From NCBI GenBank assembly GCA_015486775.1, contig WFRA01000157.1:1-9673 (forward strand): 9,673 nt of DNA, in the 5' to 3' direction. A program made the translations under genes and the position numbers. Source of the stretch: Kiritimatiellales bacterium. Its GTDB lineage: Bacteria; Verrucomicrobiota; Kiritimatiellia; Kiritimatiellales; Pontiellaceae. The notes beneath the pieces are model-generated. The model did not search any database and was not told the origin of the DNA. It saw only the letters and a list, made by a program, of their open reading frames with translations. Numbering within the stretch: the stretch's first letter is position 1; every line of letters starts with the position of its first letter. Shown here one piece after another: positions 1,795 through 9,673 of the stretch.

Positions 1795-3063
1795 ATGAAT
1801 AAATCAACGGATGTAACCATTGTCGGCGGGGGAATGATCACGAATGACCTGATCCTGCCGTCGATTTATCACCTACAGCGCACCGGGGTGGTGGGCAGAA
1901 TCGATATCTGCGCCTTGGACAGCGCCCCATTGCAGGCGCTGGCAAACAACGAGGAGATTGCACAGGCATTTCCCGGACAAAGTTTCACGGCGCATCCCGC
2001 TCTTTCTGAACCTGCGGAAAATAAGTTTCCGGAGTTGTACAAGGAGGTGCTTGCGGGCATGCCGCCGCGCCAGGCCGTGGTGGTGGCGATGCCGGACCAG
2101 TTCCACTACGAGGTGGTGAAGCAGGCGCTGGAGAGCAACCAGCATGTACTCTGCGTGAAGCCGCTTGTGCTGCGGTTCGAGCAGGCCGAGGAGCTCGAAG
2201 CCCTGGCACTTGAAAAAGGGTTGTTTGTTGGCATCGAGTACCACAAGCGCTTCGACCGCCGTTCGCTACTGGCCCGCCGCCATCACGAGTTGGGGCACTT
2301 TGGCGAATTTGTGATGGGCGAAGCCAAGATGATTGAACCCACCCTCTACCGCTCGTCAAACTTCCAGAACTGGTTCACCTGCGACAAGACCGATCCGTTT
2401 GTCTATGTGGGCTGCCACTATGTCGACCTCGTCCAGTTCATCACCGGCCTGCGGCCTACCGAGATTTCCGTGGCGGGTGTGAAGGGAACCTTTCCCAACG
2501 GCAACGAAGGCTACATGTGGGCCAACGGCCGCGTGACCTACGAAAACGGCGCCGTGCTTTCGGTGATCGACGGCCTGGGCTATCCCGACGACGGGGCCGG
2601 AAGCAACGAGCAGTGCCTGACCATGTATTTCGAGGGCGAGGGCAAGACCGGCATGATCAAGCACAACGACCAGTTCCGCGGCGTCAGCCACAGCTACCTC
2701 GACGGCATCGGCTGCGCCGGATCGACATTCAATTTTGTCAACCCCGACTTTTACCGGCTCGTTCCGTGGGAAGGCGAGGGCTACAAGCCGGTCGGCTATG
2801 GCTACGAGTCGGTGGCCGCCACGATCAACATGATCCATTTGATTGAAACTGATGTCGCCTCCATGGAAGAAGAAGCATCGTTGCTTCGTCGCCGTGAGCA
2901 CATCAAGCGCACCGACGAAAAGGGTATTATTGCCACGCCGGCTAATAGCAAGTCCAACGAGCTGGTGGTCGAAGCGGCGCGCCTTTCCATCCTGAACGAC
3001 GGACAGGCCGCCTGCATCGAGTATGGCGACAACCCGCATGTCTATCTAAAAAAATATACATGA
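1795..3063 (+). CDS. Gfo/Idh/MocA family NAD(P)-dependent oxidoreductase
   Basis: The 422-residue protein has the family's two-domain layout. Residues 6-20 form the first strand and glycine-rich dinucleotide loop (VTIVGGGMITND). AMPDQFH at 98-104 corresponds to the family's TP-x-x-x-H region. CVKP at 120-123 carries the catalytic Lys122, EYHKRF at 148-153 follows, and the substrate domain has GCHYVDLV with His208 and Asp211. In most relatives the Lys motif is EKP; here Val replaces the Glu. The ATG at 1795 has GGAG 8 nt upstream. Members oxidise or epimerise sugars, inositols or sugar acids, sometimes to ketones that are later aminated or deaminated. Being first in an operon with an aminotransferase, 6PGDH, a NagA-like enzyme and GDH, it probably oxidises a sugar hydroxyl of the pathway substrate. 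The family is certain; the substrate is unknown. Confidence 0.92.
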   Translation: MNKSTDVTIVGGGMITNDLILPSIYHLQRTGVVGRIDICALDSAPLQALANNEEIAQAFPGQSFTAHPALSEPAENKFPELYKEVLAGMPPRQAVVVAMPDQFHYEVVKQALESNQHVLCVKPLVLRFEQAEELEALALEKGLFVGIEYHKRFDRRSLLARRHHELGHFGEFVMGEAKMIEPTLYRSSNFQNWFTCDKTDPFVYVGCHYVDLVQFITGLRPTEISVAGVKGTFPNGNEGYMWANGRVTYENGAVLSVIDGLGYPDDGAGSNEQCLTMYFEGEGKTGMIKHNDQFRGVSHSYLDGIGCAGSTFNFVNPDFYRLVPWEGEGYKPVGYGYESVAATINMIHLIETDVASMEEEASLLRRREHIKRTDEKGIIATPANSKSNELVVEAARLSILNDGQAACIEYGDNPHVYLKKYT

Positions 3064-3143
3064 GTGGAATGTGTCGGGTGGCAAGTGGCTCGTGTTGCCC
3101 TTGCTACTTGACCCTCGACACTTGACCCTCGACACTTGACCCT
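3061..3143. repeat. Heptamer array with facing inverted copy between two operon genes
   Basis: From 3106 to 3143 the plus strand reads ACTTGAC, CCTCGAC, ACTTGAC, CCTCGAC, ACTTGAC, CCT: a 14-nt unit repeated 2.7 times, or degenerate 7-nt units. On the minus strand 3061-3093 also has period 7: ACGAGCC, ACTTGCC, ACCCGAC, ACATTCC, ACTCA. The two halves pair: GTGTCGGGTGGCAAGT (3071-3086) against ACTTGACCCTCGACAC (3106-3121 or 3120-3135) gives 13 Watson-Crick pairs and one wobble in 16. A long intercistronic hairpin is therefore possible. The element starts at the oxidoreductase stop codon and ends 8 nt before the aminotransferase ribosome site. Confidence 0.85.
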
Positions 3144-3150
3144 AAAACAA

Positions 3151-3154
3151 AGGA
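3151..3154 (+). promoter_or_regulatory. Ribosome binding site deciding the aminotransferase start
   Basis: AGGA within AAAGGAAA lies 8 nt before the ATG at 3163. A TTG at 3136 in the same frame has no ribosome site and falls in the heptamer array, so it is rejected. Confidence 0.7.
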
Positions 3155-3162
3155 AATTTATT

Positions 3163-4530
3163 ATGGCTAAATACGATCTGACCCCTGTTGATGTTCCACT
3201 GGTTGACACAAAATACCGGACGATAAAAACCAAGTTGCCCGTACCGGAATCGCTTCCAATCTTTGAAAAGCTCTCGCAAAGCGAACCTCAGTCGATGATG
3301 GGCCAGCCGCCCGTGATCTGGGATCGCGCCGAAGGTGTCCAGGTTTTTGATGCCTGGGGCAACAAGTGGCTCGACTGGTCGTCGTGCGTGCTGATTAGCA
3401 ACGCTGGGCATGGCCGCGAAGAGATCAAGCAGGCGCTGCTCGATGCTATTGATCAGGGTTTGCTTGCCACCTATGTCTTTGTGCATGAAAAGCGCGCCGC
3501 CCTAACGGATGCGCTGCAGAAGATTTCGCCCGATCCTGAGAACTACCAGATCTTCCTGCTCTCCACCGGTAGCGAGGCCACCGAAAACTGCATTAAGCTG
3601 GCGCGCACCTACGCCATGGAAAAATATGGCAAGCAGCGCAAATATTTTGTCTCCTTCGAGAATGCTTTCCACGGCCGCACGCTCGGCGCGCAGCTCGCGG
3701 GCGGAATGGACAAGCTCAAAAACTGGATCGCCGGGGAGGGCGACAACTTTATCCAGGTTCCGTTTCCCGACGGATATAAAAACGAAAACACCTCCTTCGA
3801 TCTTTTTCTCCAAACCTTGGAAGAAAAGGGCATCCGTCCCGAACAGATTGCCGGCGTGATGAGCGAGTCCTACCAAGGTGTCGGGCCTGACTTCCTGCCG
3901 AAGGAATATGCCAAGAAGCTGGAGGCCTTCTGCAAGGAAAACGACATCGTGCTGATCATGGACGAGGTTCAGGCCGGATTCGGCCGCACCGGAAAAATGT
4001 TCTGCTACGAACTCTACGACATCCAGCCCGACCTCATCGCCTGCGGCAAGGGCATCTCCTCTTCGCTGCCGCTCTCCGCCGTGATTGGCCGCAAGGACAT
4101 CATGGGGCTCTACGCCCCCGGCTCGATGACCTCGACCCACTCCGCCAGCCCGTTGCCCGTGGTTGCGGCACTGAAGAGCCTGGAGCTGATCCAGGATGAA
4201 AAGCTGGTGGAAAATGCGGCGAAGCTCGGCGAAATCCTGAAGCCGGAACTGGAGCGCATCCAGCAAAAATATCCCGAGGTGCTCGGTTGCGTGCAGGCCG
4301 AGGGGCTGGTGGCCGGTATCCAGTGTGTCAAGGCCGGAACAAAAACCCCCGATCCCGAGCTGGCCGTAAAGATCAACGAAAGCTGCTTCCACAAGGGGTT
4401 GCTGATGTTCGCGCCGGTTGGTATTGCTGGAGAGTGCATCAAGATTGCCCCGCCGCTGTGCATCACCGAAGACCAGCTCCGCGACGGGCTTGCCGTGCTC
4501 GAAGAGGCTTGCGACGAGATTTTGGGCTAA
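3163..4530 (+). CDS. Class III PLP-dependent aminotransferase (GabT/ornithine-aminotransferase fold)
   Basis: The 455-residue protein is a full-length class III (fold type I) aminotransferase. Visible landmarks are the phosphate-binding loop STGSEAT at 134-140, FHGRTLGA at 169-176, the cofactor Asp in IMDEVQAGFGRTG (Asp267), the PLP Schiff-base lysine in CGKGIS (Lys296), and STHSASP at 324-330 in place of the usual GTHSGNP or GTFGGNP. Class III enzymes transfer amino groups from primary amines, often terminal ones, to 2-oxoglutarate or pyruvate; some act on amino sugars, as in aminoglycoside pathways. It follows the heptamer element and is only 2 nt from the 6PGDH gene. With GDH downstream, 2-oxoglutarate is the likely acceptor and glutamate the product; this is inference. 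The sequence does not match a specific enzyme I can name, so the donor amine is open. Confidence 0.93.
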   Translation: MAKYDLTPVDVPLVDTKYRTIKTKLPVPESLPIFEKLSQSEPQSMMGQPPVIWDRAEGVQVFDAWGNKWLDWSSCVLISNAGHGREEIKQALLDAIDQGLLATYVFVHEKRAALTDALQKISPDPENYQIFLLSTGSEATENCIKLARTYAMEKYGKQRKYFVSFENAFHGRTLGAQLAGGMDKLKNWIAGEGDNFIQVPFPDGYKNENTSFDLFLQTLEEKGIRPEQIAGVMSESYQGVGPDFLPKEYAKKLEAFCKENDIVLIMDEVQAGFGRTGKMFCYELYDIQPDLIACGKGISSSLPLSAVIGRKDIMGLYAPGSMTSTHSASPLPVVAALKSLELIQDEKLVENAAKLGEILKPELERIQQKYPEVLGCVQAEGLVAGIQCVKAGTKTPDPELAVKINESCFHKGLLMFAPVGIAGECIKIAPPLCITEDQLRDGLAVLEEACDEILG

Positions 4531-4532
4531 AA

Positions 4533-5939
4533 ATGAAGACAGCAGATATTGGAATGGTTGGACTCGGCGTGATGGGGTCGAACCTTGCTCGAAACATGGT
4601 ATCGAAGGGGTTTTCGGTTTCATGCTACGACTGGGACGACTCTTTGCGAAAAGGCTTCGCCGAATCTTATGCGGAAGGATTTGTCCATACGGACAACCTA
4701 AAGCAATTTGTCGAGTCCATTGAGCGGCCACGCAAGGTCATGATGATGATCAAGGCGGGCTCGCCAGTTGATTCCGTGCTCAACGAGCTGGCCTCGCTAC
4801 TCGAACCCGGTGATGTGGTGATCGATGGCGGCAACTCGCAGTGGGAGGACACTGAGCGCCGCATTGCGCTTTCAGAAGAAAAAGGGCTTTTATATGTGGG
4901 TTGCGGCGTCTCCGGCGGCGAAGAAGGGGCATTGAACGGTCCCGCCCTTATGCCCGGTGGATCGGAAGGTGCTTGGCCTCTGATTAAGCCAATTTTCGAG
5001 GCCATTGCCGCCCGTACGCCGGAAGATGCCGTCTGCGTCGATTGGATCGGGCCAGGGGGATCGGGCCATTTCGTGAAGATGGTTCACAACGGCATTGAAT
5101 ATGGCGACATGCAGATGATCTGCGAAACCTATCAGGTCATGCGCGATGGGCTCGGCATGTCAAACATCGCGATGTCGGAGGTGTTTGGCCGATGGAACAA
5201 GGGCAAGCTCGATTCATACTTGATTGAAATCACCCGCGATATCCTCGCCTACGAAACAGAAGATGGCGAACAGGTGGTGGATATGATCCTCGATGCGGCA
5301 GGTCAGAAGGGTACCGGCAAGTGGACGCTGATGGCAGCTCTTGATGCTGGCGAGCCGCTCCCGTTGATTGGCGAAGCGGTGTTTGCCCGATGCCTCTCCG
5401 CACTCAAGACGGATCGTGAAAAGGCATCGAAAGCGTTGGTTGGCCCCAAAACCGGCATCGATGCAGCACAGGAGGATTTTGTCGAAGAGGTGAAGCAGGC
5501 GCTGTACGGATCAAAGATTATTTCCTATGCGCAGGGCTTTCAGTTGATTCAGCAGATGTCCAAAGAGCGGAACTGGAATCTCGATCTGGCACGGCTGGCA
5601 CAGCTGTGGCGCGGTGGATGCATTATTCGCTCTGTGTTGCTTAGGATGATTAAAGAGGCGTTTCAGCGTGACCCCGGCCTCTCGAATTTGTTGCTCGATC
5701 CATTGGTTGCCGAGACGGTCGGCGAGGCGCAGGTACATTGGCGCAATGCCGTGGCATGCATGACGCGGGCAGGTATCGCATCGCCAGCGATGAGTTCGGC
5801 ACTTTCGTACTACGATGGTTTCCGCACCGTGCGCGGCTCGGCTAACCTGCTGCAGGCGCAACGCGACTATTTCGGAGCACATACCTACGAGCGCGTCGAT
5901 AAGCCACGCGGTGAGTTTTTCCACACGCAATGGACGTAA
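4533..5939 (+). CDS. gnd: 6-phosphogluconate dehydrogenase, decarboxylating (probably NAD-preferring)
   Basis: The 468-residue protein matches full-length 6PGDH from end to end. It converts 6-phosphogluconate to ribulose 5-phosphate, CO2 and reduced cofactor. Seen: the dinucleotide loop GLGVMG at 10-15, GVSGGEEGA at 125-133, the catalytic block GHFVKMVHNGIEYGD at 178-192 (Lys182, His185, Asn186, Glu189), GCIIRS at 362-367, and the C-terminal QRDYFGAHTYER at 443-454 with phosphate-binding Arg444 and His450. After the second strand, where NADP enzymes have NR(S/T), it has Asp33-Trp34-Asp35; an acid here normally repels the 2'-phosphate of NADP and favours NAD. The ATG at 4533 follows the aminotransferase TAA by 2 nt without a clear Shine-Dalgarno, so translation is probably coupled. 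An ORF extending in frame to 4287 is overlap with the upstream gene and is rejected. In this context it may act on a 6-phosphogluconate-like intermediate. Confidence 0.96.
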   Translation: MKTADIGMVGLGVMGSNLARNMVSKGFSVSCYDWDDSLRKGFAESYAEGFVHTDNLKQFVESIERPRKVMMMIKAGSPVDSVLNELASLLEPGDVVIDGGNSQWEDTERRIALSEEKGLLYVGCGVSGGEEGALNGPALMPGGSEGAWPLIKPIFEAIAARTPEDAVCVDWIGPGGSGHFVKMVHNGIEYGDMQMICETYQVMRDGLGMSNIAMSEVFGRWNKGKLDSYLIEITRDILAYETEDGEQVVDMILDAAGQKGTGKWTLMAALDAGEPLPLIGEAVFARCLSALKTDREKASKALVGPKTGIDAAQEDFVEEVKQALYGSKIISYAQGFQLIQQMSKERNWNLDLARLAQLWRGGCIIRSVLLRMIKEAFQRDPGLSNLLLDPLVAETVGEAQVHWRNAVACMTRAGIASPAMSSALSYYDGFRTVRGSANLLQAQRDYFGAHTYERVDKPRGEFFHTQWT

Positions 5940-5958
5940 TGAGGAAGGAGAAGCATAA

Positions 5959-6858
5959 ATGAATTCTTTCCGAGGAATCGATCTGCAGGTGAACGGATGG
6001 GGGGGAGTCAATTTTTCCGACTCCGGTTTAACGCGCGAAGGAATCGGCCGCGCCGCCGACCTGCTGGCGGAAAAGGGGACGGAAAAATTTCTTACTACTG
6101 TGGTTACCTGCTCGCCGGAAACCTACGAAGCCGTTCTTCCATTGCTTGGAACGGCTTGCGCTGAAGACGACCGCCTGCCGGGAATCCATATCGAGGGGCC
6201 CTTTATTTCGCCCGAGGATGGAGCCGTTGGTGCCCATCCGAAGCCGCATGTGCGCGCGCCCTCCATCGATGCTTTCAAACGATTGCAAGAGCTGGCGGGC
6301 GGGCATGTCCGGCTGGTGACGCTGGCACCGGAACAACCCGGCGCACTTGGGCTGATCGAATACCTTGTGGAAAACAACGTTATCGTCTCCGTCGGCCATA
6401 CGCTGGCCAACTCCGGGCATATCGCGGATGCATGCAAGGCGGGGGCTACGCTGGCCACCCACTTGGGCAACGGCATCCCCAACGAACTCAATCGAACCCA
6501 AAATACGATCTGGGCCATTCTGGCCAGCCCGCTTACGGCCATGCTGATCACGGATGGGTTCCACCTCCCGCCGGACTTTATCAAGACGGTCTATGCCGCC
6601 AAAGGTTCGGGAAAAACCATCCTGGTCTCCGATGCCGCGCCCGTGGCGGGACAGCTTCCCGGCGAATATGAAATCTTTGGAACCCGGGTGCGGCTGACCA
6701 AAGAGGGTTGCGTGCAAAATCTAAACGCGCCGACGCTGGCGGGTAGTGCCTCCGATCTCGCTGCCTGTGCCGGGGTGGCCGAAAAGATCCTAGGTTTGGA
6801 AAAAGCGGAACTAGAAAAGATCTATTTCGGCAATGCCGCAACTTTGCTGAAAATATAG
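5959..6858 (+). CDS. nagA: NagA-like N-acetylglucosamine-6-phosphate deacetylase, barrel-only form
   Basis: NagA removes the acetyl group from GlcNAc-6-phosphate. This 299-residue protein lines up with the catalytic barrel of NagA: GIDLQVNGWGGV at 6-17 (the QxN variant of the amidohydrolase HxH motif), HIEGPF at 77-82 (metal Glu79), SVGHT at 144-148 (His147), ATHLGNGIPN at 166-175 (His168), TDGFH at 198-202 (His202) and SDAAPVAG at 224-231 (catalytic Asp225). Usual NagA proteins are about 380 residues; the strands before the barrel and those after NAATLL that build the second, beta-sandwich domain are absent here. It is not a truncation by mutation: the start has AAGGAG 8 nt upstream and the stop is clean. 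It lies 19 nt after gnd and 38 nt before the GDH gene. The deacetylase family is firm; the exact acetylated substrate may differ from GlcNAc-6-phosphate. Confidence 0.85.
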   Translation: MNSFRGIDLQVNGWGGVNFSDSGLTREGIGRAADLLAEKGTEKFLTTVVTCSPETYEAVLPLLGTACAEDDRLPGIHIEGPFISPEDGAVGAHPKPHVRAPSIDAFKRLQELAGGHVRLVTLAPEQPGALGLIEYLVENNVIVSVGHTLANSGHIADACKAGATLATHLGNGIPNELNRTQNTIWAILASPLTAMLITDGFHLPPDFIKTVYAAKGSGKTILVSDAAPVAGQLPGEYEIFGTRVRLTKEGCVQNLNAPTLAGSASDLAACAGVAEKILGLEKAELEKIYFGNAATLLKI

Positions 6859-6896
6859 GAAGGGAAGAATTTTTCATTTATGGGAGTGTACAGGCC

Positions 6897-9673
6897 ATGG
6901 AAAATCAAACGGTTTCGATTACAGGCGACATAGGAGAAAAGGCGGCAGGTGTTGGGTTGGATATTGCGTTGCTGTATGATGCCGTCATCGAACTGACCAA
7001 CGAGGGGCTACTTTCTGCGGTTTGCCTCAACGAAGCGGTGGCTGTCTTGATTGGCCATCTGGGGCTGCCATCCTATTTTTTCCAGCATATTTCCAAGGGC
7101 GCGTTGAAAAACATCCTGCGCGTTATTGGGCGCAATGTTGTCCGGGAGAATGGAGGGTTTGCGCTGCGCGGCGAACTGGCGGAGGTGCAGATGGATGCCG
7201 GCCACGGAGTCTGGGTTCGGATTGCAACCGCCGAAACACGCGACCGGATGGAATCCCTGCTCGACACGGCGATGGTTGGCGGACGGGTTGAATACTATTT
7301 TGGCGAGGAACACGGATACCACACCTACCTGGTACGTCTGGAACCTTGCAAGGAGCTAGCCGAGCTAACTGAGGGGGAATCGCCGTTCGCCTTCTCGCAT
7401 TCCGAATGCAAGGCGGCCATCCCGAAGAAAACACAGTTGCGCTATGTGGGGTTCCTCAAGCGTTCCCGGGGAAGGGCAAAGCCGCTTGTCGAAACCTCCC
7501 GCTGCATGTCGACGAACGAAACCCGTATCATGTTCCGCGAGGATTCTTCCCGCTCCATCCTGCCGGTTCTCAGGAAGATTGCGGAGGATTTGGGAATCAC
7601 GCTGACCCGTGCCTATTGGGAGCCCTACCGGGGCGAAACCGACCGCATCGAATCCGTCTGCTCGCTCTACCTCAAGGGATGCCCCCCGAAAAAATCCATG
7701 GAAAGGGCGGTGATCCAGATTCGGGGACTACTTGCCATCTCCGGCGACAAAAGGATTGAGCAACTCTATGTCAAAGGGGAACTCTCCTTTGAGGAATATG
7801 TTTTTTCCGTCAATGCCTTGGCTTTCGTGCATGGGTTTATCTGCAAGGATCTCGATGTCGACCGGGAGCTACTCAACGCACTGTCTCGACCGGAACTCCG
7901 CGAAACTATGGCGCGGCGTATTTTCGAGTCGAACCGCAACGAGTATACGTGGGGTACAATTCAGCACGTCATCTCTTCGCATCCCGAGCTCATAAAGAAG
8001 GTCTACGATCTTTTCAACCGCCGCTTCAACCCGACTCGTTTGCGCCGCATTTCCGAAGCTTCGCTGAAAAGGAAAATCGTGGAATTCAAACGGCATCTGG
8101 ATGTGGTGTTCATGGATGACGCGACCTCGCACGATATCTTTTCGTTCATGGCGCATCTGCTGACCGATGTGCGCAAAACGAATTTCTACCTGCCGGAAAA
8201 ACGTTCCTTCGCCTTCCGCATGGATGCCAGCGTGCTCGACCCACTGGTCTTTCCCTCGAAGGTCCACGGCATTTTCTTTGTGGCCGGTTTCTACAGTATC
8301 GGAACCCATCTACGGGCGGACGATATTGCCCGGGGCGGCCTGCGCTTGATCCGAGTGACCAAAAGCAACTACAGTGTACAGCTCGACCAGATGGTGCCGC
8401 TCAACTATGCGCTTGGCCCCGTGGCCCAGCGGCTGAAGCACAAGGATATTGCCGAGAGCGGATCGAAGGGGGTCATCGTCCCCTTTGTCGAATATGCCCG
8501 CGAGGGCTTGCAAGCGGTGCTCGACTATACCGAGGGGATACTCGACCTGGTGCAGACCTCGCCGGACGTGGTGGATTACCTGGAACGCCACGAAATGGTT
8601 TTCTTCGGTCCCGACGAGGGAACCGCCCCGTTCATGGACGACGTTGCGGAATATGCTCGGAAGCGCGGATACAAAATGTGGCGCACGCTAACCACCGGCA
8701 AGAGCATCGGCATCCCACACGATGCCCACGGACTCACAAAGGAAGGGAAGGTGTTCAGCCTCCTAGGACGCGGCGAAAAGGGGACGGAGTTGCTATTGGA
8801 TGGGAAATCCAAGGCGGTTTCCAAAAACATGTCTGTGTTGCGGAATGCGATCGGCTCGCGCATCGCCACTAGCGGCATGACCACCGCCGGTGTCATGGCC
8901 TCCTTCCGGGCAGTCATCGACCACCTCGGCATGGACGAGGCATCGGTGAACCTTATGATGACCGGCGGCCCCGACGGGGATCTGGGTGCCAACCAGATCC
9001 AGACGTTCAAGGGACGAATCTGTCTCTTGATCGACGGCGGCGGCATCTTGTTCGATCCGGACGGGCTCGATCGCGATGCGCTACTGGAACTGGCGCTGGC
9101 TCGCCATACCTCCCCCCGGCTCAACAGCATGGATTTCCCGGAAGAGAAGCTCGGCTCGGGCGGATTCAAGATGCCGGGCATCGCGGGAGAGTTCGCGCTC
9201 CCGGACGGGACGAAGCTCGATGATGCCATGCTGTTCCACCGCACCGCACTGACCCGCCCGGAAATACGCCCGCTCGTCGCCAAAGCTAATATCCAAGCCT
9301 TCATTCCCTGCGGCGGATTCCGCGAAACAATCAACGCTGGCAACGTCCACGCTTTCCTAGACATATTCAGGGAACTGCGGGTGATCGTGGAGGGCGCCAA
9401 TGTCTTCTTCGACGATGCCGCCCGCCGGGTGGTCGCTACGGAAACGAAAATCCTCCAAATCAAGGATTCCACCGCCAACAAAGGCGGCGTGACGTGTAGC
9501 TCAATGGGGGAGGTGCTCCCTGCAATCTTGCTGGGCAACGATTATGAAAAAACCATTTTGGATGATCCTGAAACACAGATAAGGCTGATTGGCGATATGT
9601 TTGCCATCATCCAGCGCAATGCCGCCCTGGAGACCCGCATGCTACTCGCCCTGAATGACAAAGAGGGAACTCC
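6897..9673 (+). CDS. Large NAD-type glutamate dehydrogenase (115-kDa, fungal Gdh2-like), 3' end missing
   Basis: An uninterrupted frame of 925 codons runs from the ATG at 6897 (GGAG 10 nt upstream) off the right edge. Residues 1 to about 400 are a poorly conserved N-terminal region. The catalytic part shows DIARGGLRL around residues 476-484, ESGSKGVIVPF with Lys524, FFGPDEGTAPFMDD from 569, TTGKSIGIPHDAHG from 599, the dinucleotide loop TGGPDGDLGANQI from 689, then VIVEGANVFFDD and KDSTANKGGVTCSS near the end. These match the large 115-kDa GDH class known from yeast Gdh2 and some bacteria, not the common 450-residue or the 180-kDa GDH. The class oxidatively deaminates glutamate to 2-oxoglutarate and ammonia with NAD. 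Here it would regenerate 2-oxoglutarate for the aminotransferase. About 100-150 residues are probably missing. No frameshift was found. Confidence 0.93.
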   Translation, partial: MENQTVSITGDIGEKAAGVGLDIALLYDAVIELTNEGLLSAVCLNEAVAVLIGHLGLPSYFFQHISKGALKNILRVIGRNVVRENGGFALRGELAEVQMDAGHGVWVRIATAETRDRMESLLDTAMVGGRVEYYFGEEHGYHTYLVRLEPCKELAELTEGESPFAFSHSECKAAIPKKTQLRYVGFLKRSRGRAKPLVETSRCMSTNETRIMFREDSSRSILPVLRKIAEDLGITLTRAYWEPYRGETDRIESVCSLYLKGCPPKKSMERAVIQIRGLLAISGDKRIEQLYVKGELSFEEYVFSVNALAFVHGFICKDLDVDRELLNALSRPELRETMARRIFESNRNEYTWGTIQHVISSHPELIKKVYDLFNRRFNPTRLRRISEASLKRKIVEFKRHLDVVFMDDATSHDIFSFMAHLLTDVRKTNFYLPEKRSFAFRMDASVLDPLVFPSKVHGIFFVAGFYSIGTHLRADDIARGGLRLIRVTKSNYSVQLDQMVPLNYALGPVAQRLKHKDIAESGSKGVIVPFVEYAREGLQAVLDYTEGILDLVQTSPDVVDYLERHEMVFFGPDEGTAPFMDDVAEYARKRGYKMWRTLTTGKSIGIPHDAHGLTKEGKVFSLLGRGEKGTELLLDGKSKAVSKNMSVLRNAIGSRIATSGMTTAGVMASFRAVIDHLGMDEASVNLMMTGGPDGDLGANQIQTFKGRICLLIDGGGILFDPDGLDRDALLELALARHTSPRLNSMDFPEEKLGSGGFKMPGIAGEFALPDGTKLDDAMLFHRTALTRPEIRPLVAKANIQAFIPCGGFRETINAGNVHAFLDIFRELRVIVEGANVFFDDAARRVVATETKILQIKDSTANKGGVTCSSMGEVLPAILLGNDYEKTILDDPETQIRLIGDMFAIIQRNAALETRMLLALNDKEGT

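Follow-up and report, generated by a model that had tools for sequence, protein, structure and literature searches.

The 9,673-nt contig WFRA01000157.1 of a Kiritimatiellales bacterium was analysed in full and is called the window here. It carries a run of five genes headed by a divergent Gfo/Idh/MocA oxidoreductase (GFO; 1795..3063, + strand, 422 amino acids (aa)) and a class III pyridoxal phosphate (PLP) aminotransferase (AT3; 3163..4530, + strand, 455 aa from an ATG). A comparison across genomes shows that the conserved unit is this GFO-AT3 pair, not the order of all five genes. Together with a NagA-type deacetylase and a glutamate dehydrogenase (GDH), the pair would likely denitrogenate amino sugars by a two-step reaction, as a predicted stand-in for the usual one-step deaminase. 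GFO is a predicted keto-sugar reductase and AT3 a predicted amino-sugar:2-oxoglutarate aminotransferase; all functional assignments in this work are predictions from sequence. GFO, which a preliminary description of the window left out of its chemistry, is probably central to the pathway.

We searched 193 genomes of the class with thresholds of E 1e-90 for AT3 and E 1e-60 for GFO. AT3 was found in 35 genomes, GFO in 37, and both in 34. GFO was thus present in 34/35 genomes with AT3 versus 3/158 without it (Fisher p ~3e-33, uncorrected for relatedness). The one genome with AT3 and no GFO (G129) is 68% complete, and the three with GFO and no AT3 (G136, G157, G200) all owe their GFO to partial or contig-edge matches. 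The two genes are also neighbours: in 29 of the 35 class loci AT3 has a same-strand GFO no more than 5 kb away, and in 26 no more than 1 kb away. Among the six remaining loci, four leave less than 300 nt on the usual GFO side. The other two (L162 and L143) are roomy yet GFO-free there, and in the genome of L162 (G073) GFO sits on a separate contig. Same-strand genes as closely spaced as those of the window are unremarkable alone; the recurrence of GFO with AT3 is what surpasses chance.

The core of the gene set recurs in further families and phyla. Nine AT3 loci were collected outside the class: three via NagA (L024, L027, L061), four from NagA-picked genomes (L177-L180), and two via a Spirochaetota search (L184, L185). 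GFO lay near AT3 in 6/9 of them, a set biased towards NagA by its selection. AT3 was present in 3/198 Spirochaetota genomes, the centre genome counted. At E 1e-140, AT3 was found in none of the Bacteroidota genomes drawn from an order (0/194) or a class (0/295). AT3 homologues are listed as Cyclobacteriaceae, Prolixibacteraceae and Draconibacterium, so that either these draws missed them or the names are off.

The preliminary description had suggested looking in related genomes for the exact five-gene order, and this order is not conserved. In the nearest relative, of the same genus (G011, locus L096), the run is GFO-AT3-NagA-GDH and lacks a 6-phosphogluconate dehydrogenase (GND). A second Gfo gene (3322-4479) comes 46 nt after the GDH, and an AraC-type regulator (11321-12178) is divergent from GFO. 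GND adjoins AT3 in just 1/35 class loci, and in another it lies at 6.6 kb. NagA lies within 5 kb of AT3 in 9/35 class loci, on the same strand in eight. The GDH beside the pair comes in two types: a large one in the window and G011, and one of 420 aa that sits 12-57 nt upstream of GFO (L138, L144, L145, L149, L150). A LacI-type regulator relative was found within 5 kb of AT3 in 8/35 class loci. Some neighbours were single cases: L184 has a GH20, L167 a sulfatase, and L177 and L178 have solute-binding proteins. On the Spirochaetaceae chromosome of L177, two SIS-domain proteins (11764-12510 and 14977-15759) and ABC-transporter parts also lie near AT3-GFO.

GFO scored 53.2 bits against PF01408 (cut-off 24), which places its NAD-binding domain in the Gfo/Idh/MocA family. 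The C-terminal model PF22725 gave 26.5 bits, slightly below its cut-off of 27. The predicted structure has a Gfo-family fold (pLDDT 85.3), its top VIA-align matches were GenD2 and KanD2, and residues K122, Y204 and H208 were invariant across a 27-row alignment. AT3 scored 286.1 bits against PF00202 (cut-off 30.5) and belongs to the class III aminotransferases. The PLP lysine at the position of GabT K268 was present in all 44 AT3 rows; the position of GabT R398 was a lysine in 44/44, and a glutamate at the position of GabT E211 was found in 0/44. AT3 homologues are labelled 4-aminobutyrate or aspartate aminotransferase in the sources. We rejected AT3 as an ordinary 4-aminobutyrate (GABA) transaminase, since both E211 and R398 are absent throughout and TIGR00700 gave 246.9 bits against a cut-off of 506.65. 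The best solved-structure relatives of AT3 are alpha-amino-acid racemases and epimerases. Neither GFO nor AT3 attained an NCBIfam cut-off among the families listed. The AT3 open reading frame (ORF) holds a further possible start, a TTG at 3136.

The third partner is a short NagA-type N-acetyl-amino-sugar deacetylase (5959..6858, + strand, 299 aa). It scored 176.5 bits against TIGR00221, below the cut-off of 225.65, and covered positions 59-313 of the 380 in the profile. The regions flanking the barrel (beta-sandwich) are missing, and the protein falls short of full length; judged by these matches, we class it as NagA-like rather than NagA. The residues E131, H195, H216, N219, R227, H251 and D273 of E. 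coli NagA were identical in 14/14 rows, window included. We take E131, H195, H216, H251 and D273 to be metal and catalytic positions, and R227 is presumably a phosphate contact.

We then placed 95 NagA-type proteins on a tree (quick IQ-TREE with SH-aLRT, an approximate likelihood ratio test, and with long branches flagged). The pair-linked deacetylases came from several branches. Linkage to AT3 changed at least eight times on this tree, six of them forced by starred branches, where shuffled labels averaged 13.3. NagA and the pair have thus been joined or separated several times. A NagB or NagB-like gene within 3 kb of NagA was found in 0/14 loci with AT3, five of which are contigs shorter than 7 kb, versus 32/81 loci without AT3 (Fisher p 0.002, uncorrected for kinship). 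Among six independent pairs, the same direction was never seen and the opposite one occurred 3.5 times on average, a number of pairs at which significance is unattainable. Two Planctomycetota loci, L032 and L024, match on both sides of a differing centre: three genes on the left are 71, 82 and 73% identical, and NagA with two more genes on the right 64, 82 and 81%. The centre of L032 holds a NagB-like gene and others, and that of L024 holds GFO, AT3 and a GHMP-kinase-like gene on the other strand. The genomes of L027 and L032 each carry a NagB above the cut-off; that of L024 has none, its best match reaching 72.7 bits. We also observed a divergent NagB-like family adjoining a short NagA in L016 (9172-9903), L021 (9222-9986) and L032 (8858-9601), at 135-155 bits (cut-off 236.9). 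The genomes of L021 and L032 additionally hold a standard nagB of more than 400 bits.

Taken together, we propose the following scheme. The NagA-type deacetylase would free the amino sugar, and AT3 would transfer the amino group of the deacetylated sugar to 2-oxoglutarate. GFO would then reduce the resulting keto sugar to a hydroxyl. From the glutamate formed, the GDH would restore 2-oxoglutarate with release of ammonia and NAD(P)H, recycling both cofactors. The net reaction would be R-NH2 + H2O -> R-OH + NH4+ in a closed cofactor cycle, run in the catabolic direction. C6 of the substrate may bear a phosphate or some other anion, and the pair would replace a NagB-like deaminase next to NagA. 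In the host lineage, GND would drain the product towards ribulose 5-phosphate. We give close to an even chance to the claim that GFO and AT3 act in turn on a NagA-freed amino sugar while GDH regenerates 2-oxoglutarate and NAD(P)H. More tentatively, amino-sugar deamination by the pair could form a class of its own: a transaminase-ketoreductase module that is mobile, has a redox-neutral cycle closed by GDH, and would in several phyla have repeatedly displaced the NagB-type deaminase next to NagA. To our knowledge, amino-sugar phosphates and acids are deaminated either by a single isomerising deaminase or by an ammonia-lyase. No description of an oxidoreductase-aminotransferase-deacetylase route was found among the titles and abstract openings listed by searches of open-licence literature. 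If the proposal is true, the transaminase-reductase couple would be a further chemical solution to amino-sugar deamination, and it would give a function to a widespread aminotransferase now carrying a 4-aminobutyrate or aspartate aminotransferase label. It also predicts that AT3 and GFO together should restore an E. coli strain deleted for nagB, or the corresponding galactosamine mutant.

A simple replacement of NagB is weakened by the distribution of nagB itself. The preliminary description had stated that no NagB-type deaminase is seen. This is correct for the window, whose main ORFs gave no NagB-type match, but not for the host genome, where nagB lies on another contig (C380; 269.1 bits, curated cut-off 236.9). 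Contig C308 carries a NagA relative and, at 43.8 bits, a weak relative of NagB; the host nagB matches are limited to these two contigs, and none was found near the operon. The absence of nagB from the host genome is thus ruled out. A nagB match was present in 29/35 genomes with AT3, host included, versus 105/158 without AT3, and the idea that AT3 substitutes for nagB at the level of whole genomes is unsupported. G011 has no nagB match. Given that most AT3 genomes also match nagB, the pair probably serves an amino sugar or a pool other than that of the housekeeping NagB.

The uronate and hexonate links around the pair leave room for an amino-sugar acid, which may be the substrate. In one such scheme, close to that of the preliminary description, NagA would deacetylate an N-acetyl-aminohexonate 6-phosphate, AT3 would convert the product to its 2-keto acid, reduction by GFO would give 6-phosphogluconate, and GND would decarboxylate this to ribulose 5-phosphate. 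The scheme is a particular form of the transaminase-reductase chemistry proposed above, employs all five genes in one line, and suits the racemase and epimerase relatives of AT3. The window GND (4533..5939, + strand) is a clear 6-phosphogluconate dehydrogenase, with 672.7 bits against TIGR00873 (cut-off 426.7) and agreement with E. coli Gnd at 19/20 inspected positions. A same-strand GND lies within 6 kb of NagA in 4/95 NagA loci: the window, L019 and L098 (~1 kb apart, with one ORF between) and L161 (5.6 kb). The ORF between GND and NagA in L098 had no Pfam match. The genomes of L098 (G043) and L019 (apparently G074) both carry GFO-AT3 together with the uronate isomerase on another contig. 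In L045 and L054, GND lies 5-6 kb from NagA on the opposite strand. On host contig C141 (L099, 2086-9028), a second GND is accompanied by a LacI-type regulator, a mannonate oxidoreductase and two adjacent nickel-dependent putative hexonate epimerases, which score 618.8 and 581.2 bits (cut-off 500). These genes likely form a mannonate-gluconate-pentose phosphate module. The pentulose phosphate end product of the preliminary description is therefore possible, although the linkage is patchy and the idea depends on GND. The amino-sugar-acid scheme is set back by the G011 operon and the other AT3 loci, where GND is nearly always missing from the side of the pair, and the window shows no identified kinase or C1-oxidising enzyme. 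Other families serve the known N-acetylglucosaminate pathways (PMC9537276, PMC12017989, PMC12343721). We consider this scheme unlikely. A need for GND due to a missing zwf is unsupported, with a zwf match in 133/193 class genomes and a partial one in the host (C12, 101 bits).

The uronate links allow another reading, in which the pair deaminates an amino-uronic acid, or shares operons that handle the uronate and hexosamine halves of a polymer such as a glycosaminoglycan. A uronate isomerase stands beside AT3 in 7/35 class loci, and the one of the seven compared with solved structures matched BH0493 (444 bits). Locus L161 (G084, 707-11380) has GFO-AT3-NagA-UxaE-PfkB-NAD epimerase-hexonate epimerase relative-mannonate oxidoreductase-GND in one run, the hexonate epimerase relative scoring 178.5 bits (cut-off 500). 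The sulfatase in L167 and the GH20 in L184 point the same way, and some GFO relatives carry the Joint Genome Institute (JGI) name D-galacturonate reductase. However, all seven isomerase loci belong to one family (f3) and perhaps reflect a single event, the window holds no uronate enzyme, and NagA keeps R227, presumably for phosphate. We judge this reading quite unlikely. It is still less probable that the pair works in the biosynthetic direction, with GFO oxidising a hydroxyl, AT3 aminating with glutamate, and GDH supplying the glutamate. Known Gfo-aminotransferase couples such as GenD2/GenS2 are indeed biosynthetic, but a NagA-type deacetylase recurs beside this pair, and in the sample of neighbours scanned no glycosyltransferase or acetyltransferase family was reported. 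That AT3 and GFO are grouped loosely or by chance, each in an unrelated amino-acid or sugar step, fits the strong differences in neighbours among families, but the near-perfect co-occurrence and the repeated linkage to NagA and GDH make it very improbable.

In the preliminary description all five genes share a strand and are separated by 99, 2, 19 and 38 nt, and we found this arrangement exactly on the + strand. In addition, the GDH (6897..9673, + strand) is cut by the contig end, with 925 codons visible. It scored 77.4 bits against PF00208 and 49.9 bits against PF05088, and its counterpart in L096 is 80% identical and 1037 aa long. The unusual amino-sugar degradation route proposed earlier survives in part: the set of deacetylase, aminotransferase and GDH fits nitrogen removal, but the core is the GFO-AT3 pair instead. 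Judged by spacing and recurrence, the five genes form a putative operon. A promoter and terminator scan gave no signal above shuffled sequence, and an Rfam scan of the window at E 0.1 gave zero matches. The window is an entire contig (G000:C157) of a 2.5-Mb assembly with 439 contigs and 72% completeness. On the - strand, a DUF5320 gene (243-545) and a DUF134 gene (790-1170) are divergent from the operon. Upstream of the operon, stretches 1008-1228, 1530-1665 and 1697-1756 are 92, 88 and 78% identical to host contigs C20, C116 and C178, and the stretch 1008-1228 overlaps the DUF134 gene.

We compared the proposed scheme with known systems. Like the NagA-NagB route, the window has a NagA-type deacetylase that keeps the inspected catalytic and metal positions. 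Unlike that route, it has an aminotransferase and an oxidoreductase and no NagB, and its deacetylase is short and below the curated cut-off. NagB1/NagB2 and AgaS/AgaI are single-step isomerising deaminases, whereas the proposed pair would use two redox-coupled steps. These enzymes are non-orthologous proteins for the same deamination step (PMC5583593), and the pair would likewise be different proteins filling that step. In the OngB/OngC oxidative chitin route and the glucosaminate-6-phosphate ammonia-lyase routes, an amino-sugar acid is first deacetylated and then loses its nitrogen in a PLP-dependent step (PMC9537276, PMC12017989, PMC12343721), the same order as in the proposed scheme. They differ in having a D-aminoacylase-like deacetylase and a lyase-type deamination to 2-keto-3-deoxygluconate (KDG) or its 6-phosphate (KDPG), versus transamination and reduction. 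The mannonate-gluconate-pentose phosphate path with the LarA-type hexonate epimerase GntE, proposed for GntE2 (PMC7583248), also leads to gluconate and on to the pentose phosphate pathway, and the second host GND sits with two such epimerases; it has no amino-sugar step and lies outside the window. GenS2/GenD2 of gentamicin biosynthesis, and KanS2/KanD2 alike, combine a Gfo-type dehydrogenase and a PLP aminotransferase on one sugar carbon, as predicted here. Unlike the GFO-AT3 operon, GenS2/GenD2 are biosynthetic, act on pseudotrisaccharides, and have no deacetylase or GDH partner; identity to GFO is 16%. Supplied with 2-oxoglutarate and NAD(P)H in vitro, GenS2/GenD2 run in reverse and convert C-NH2 to C-OH on aminoglycosides (PMC4340712).

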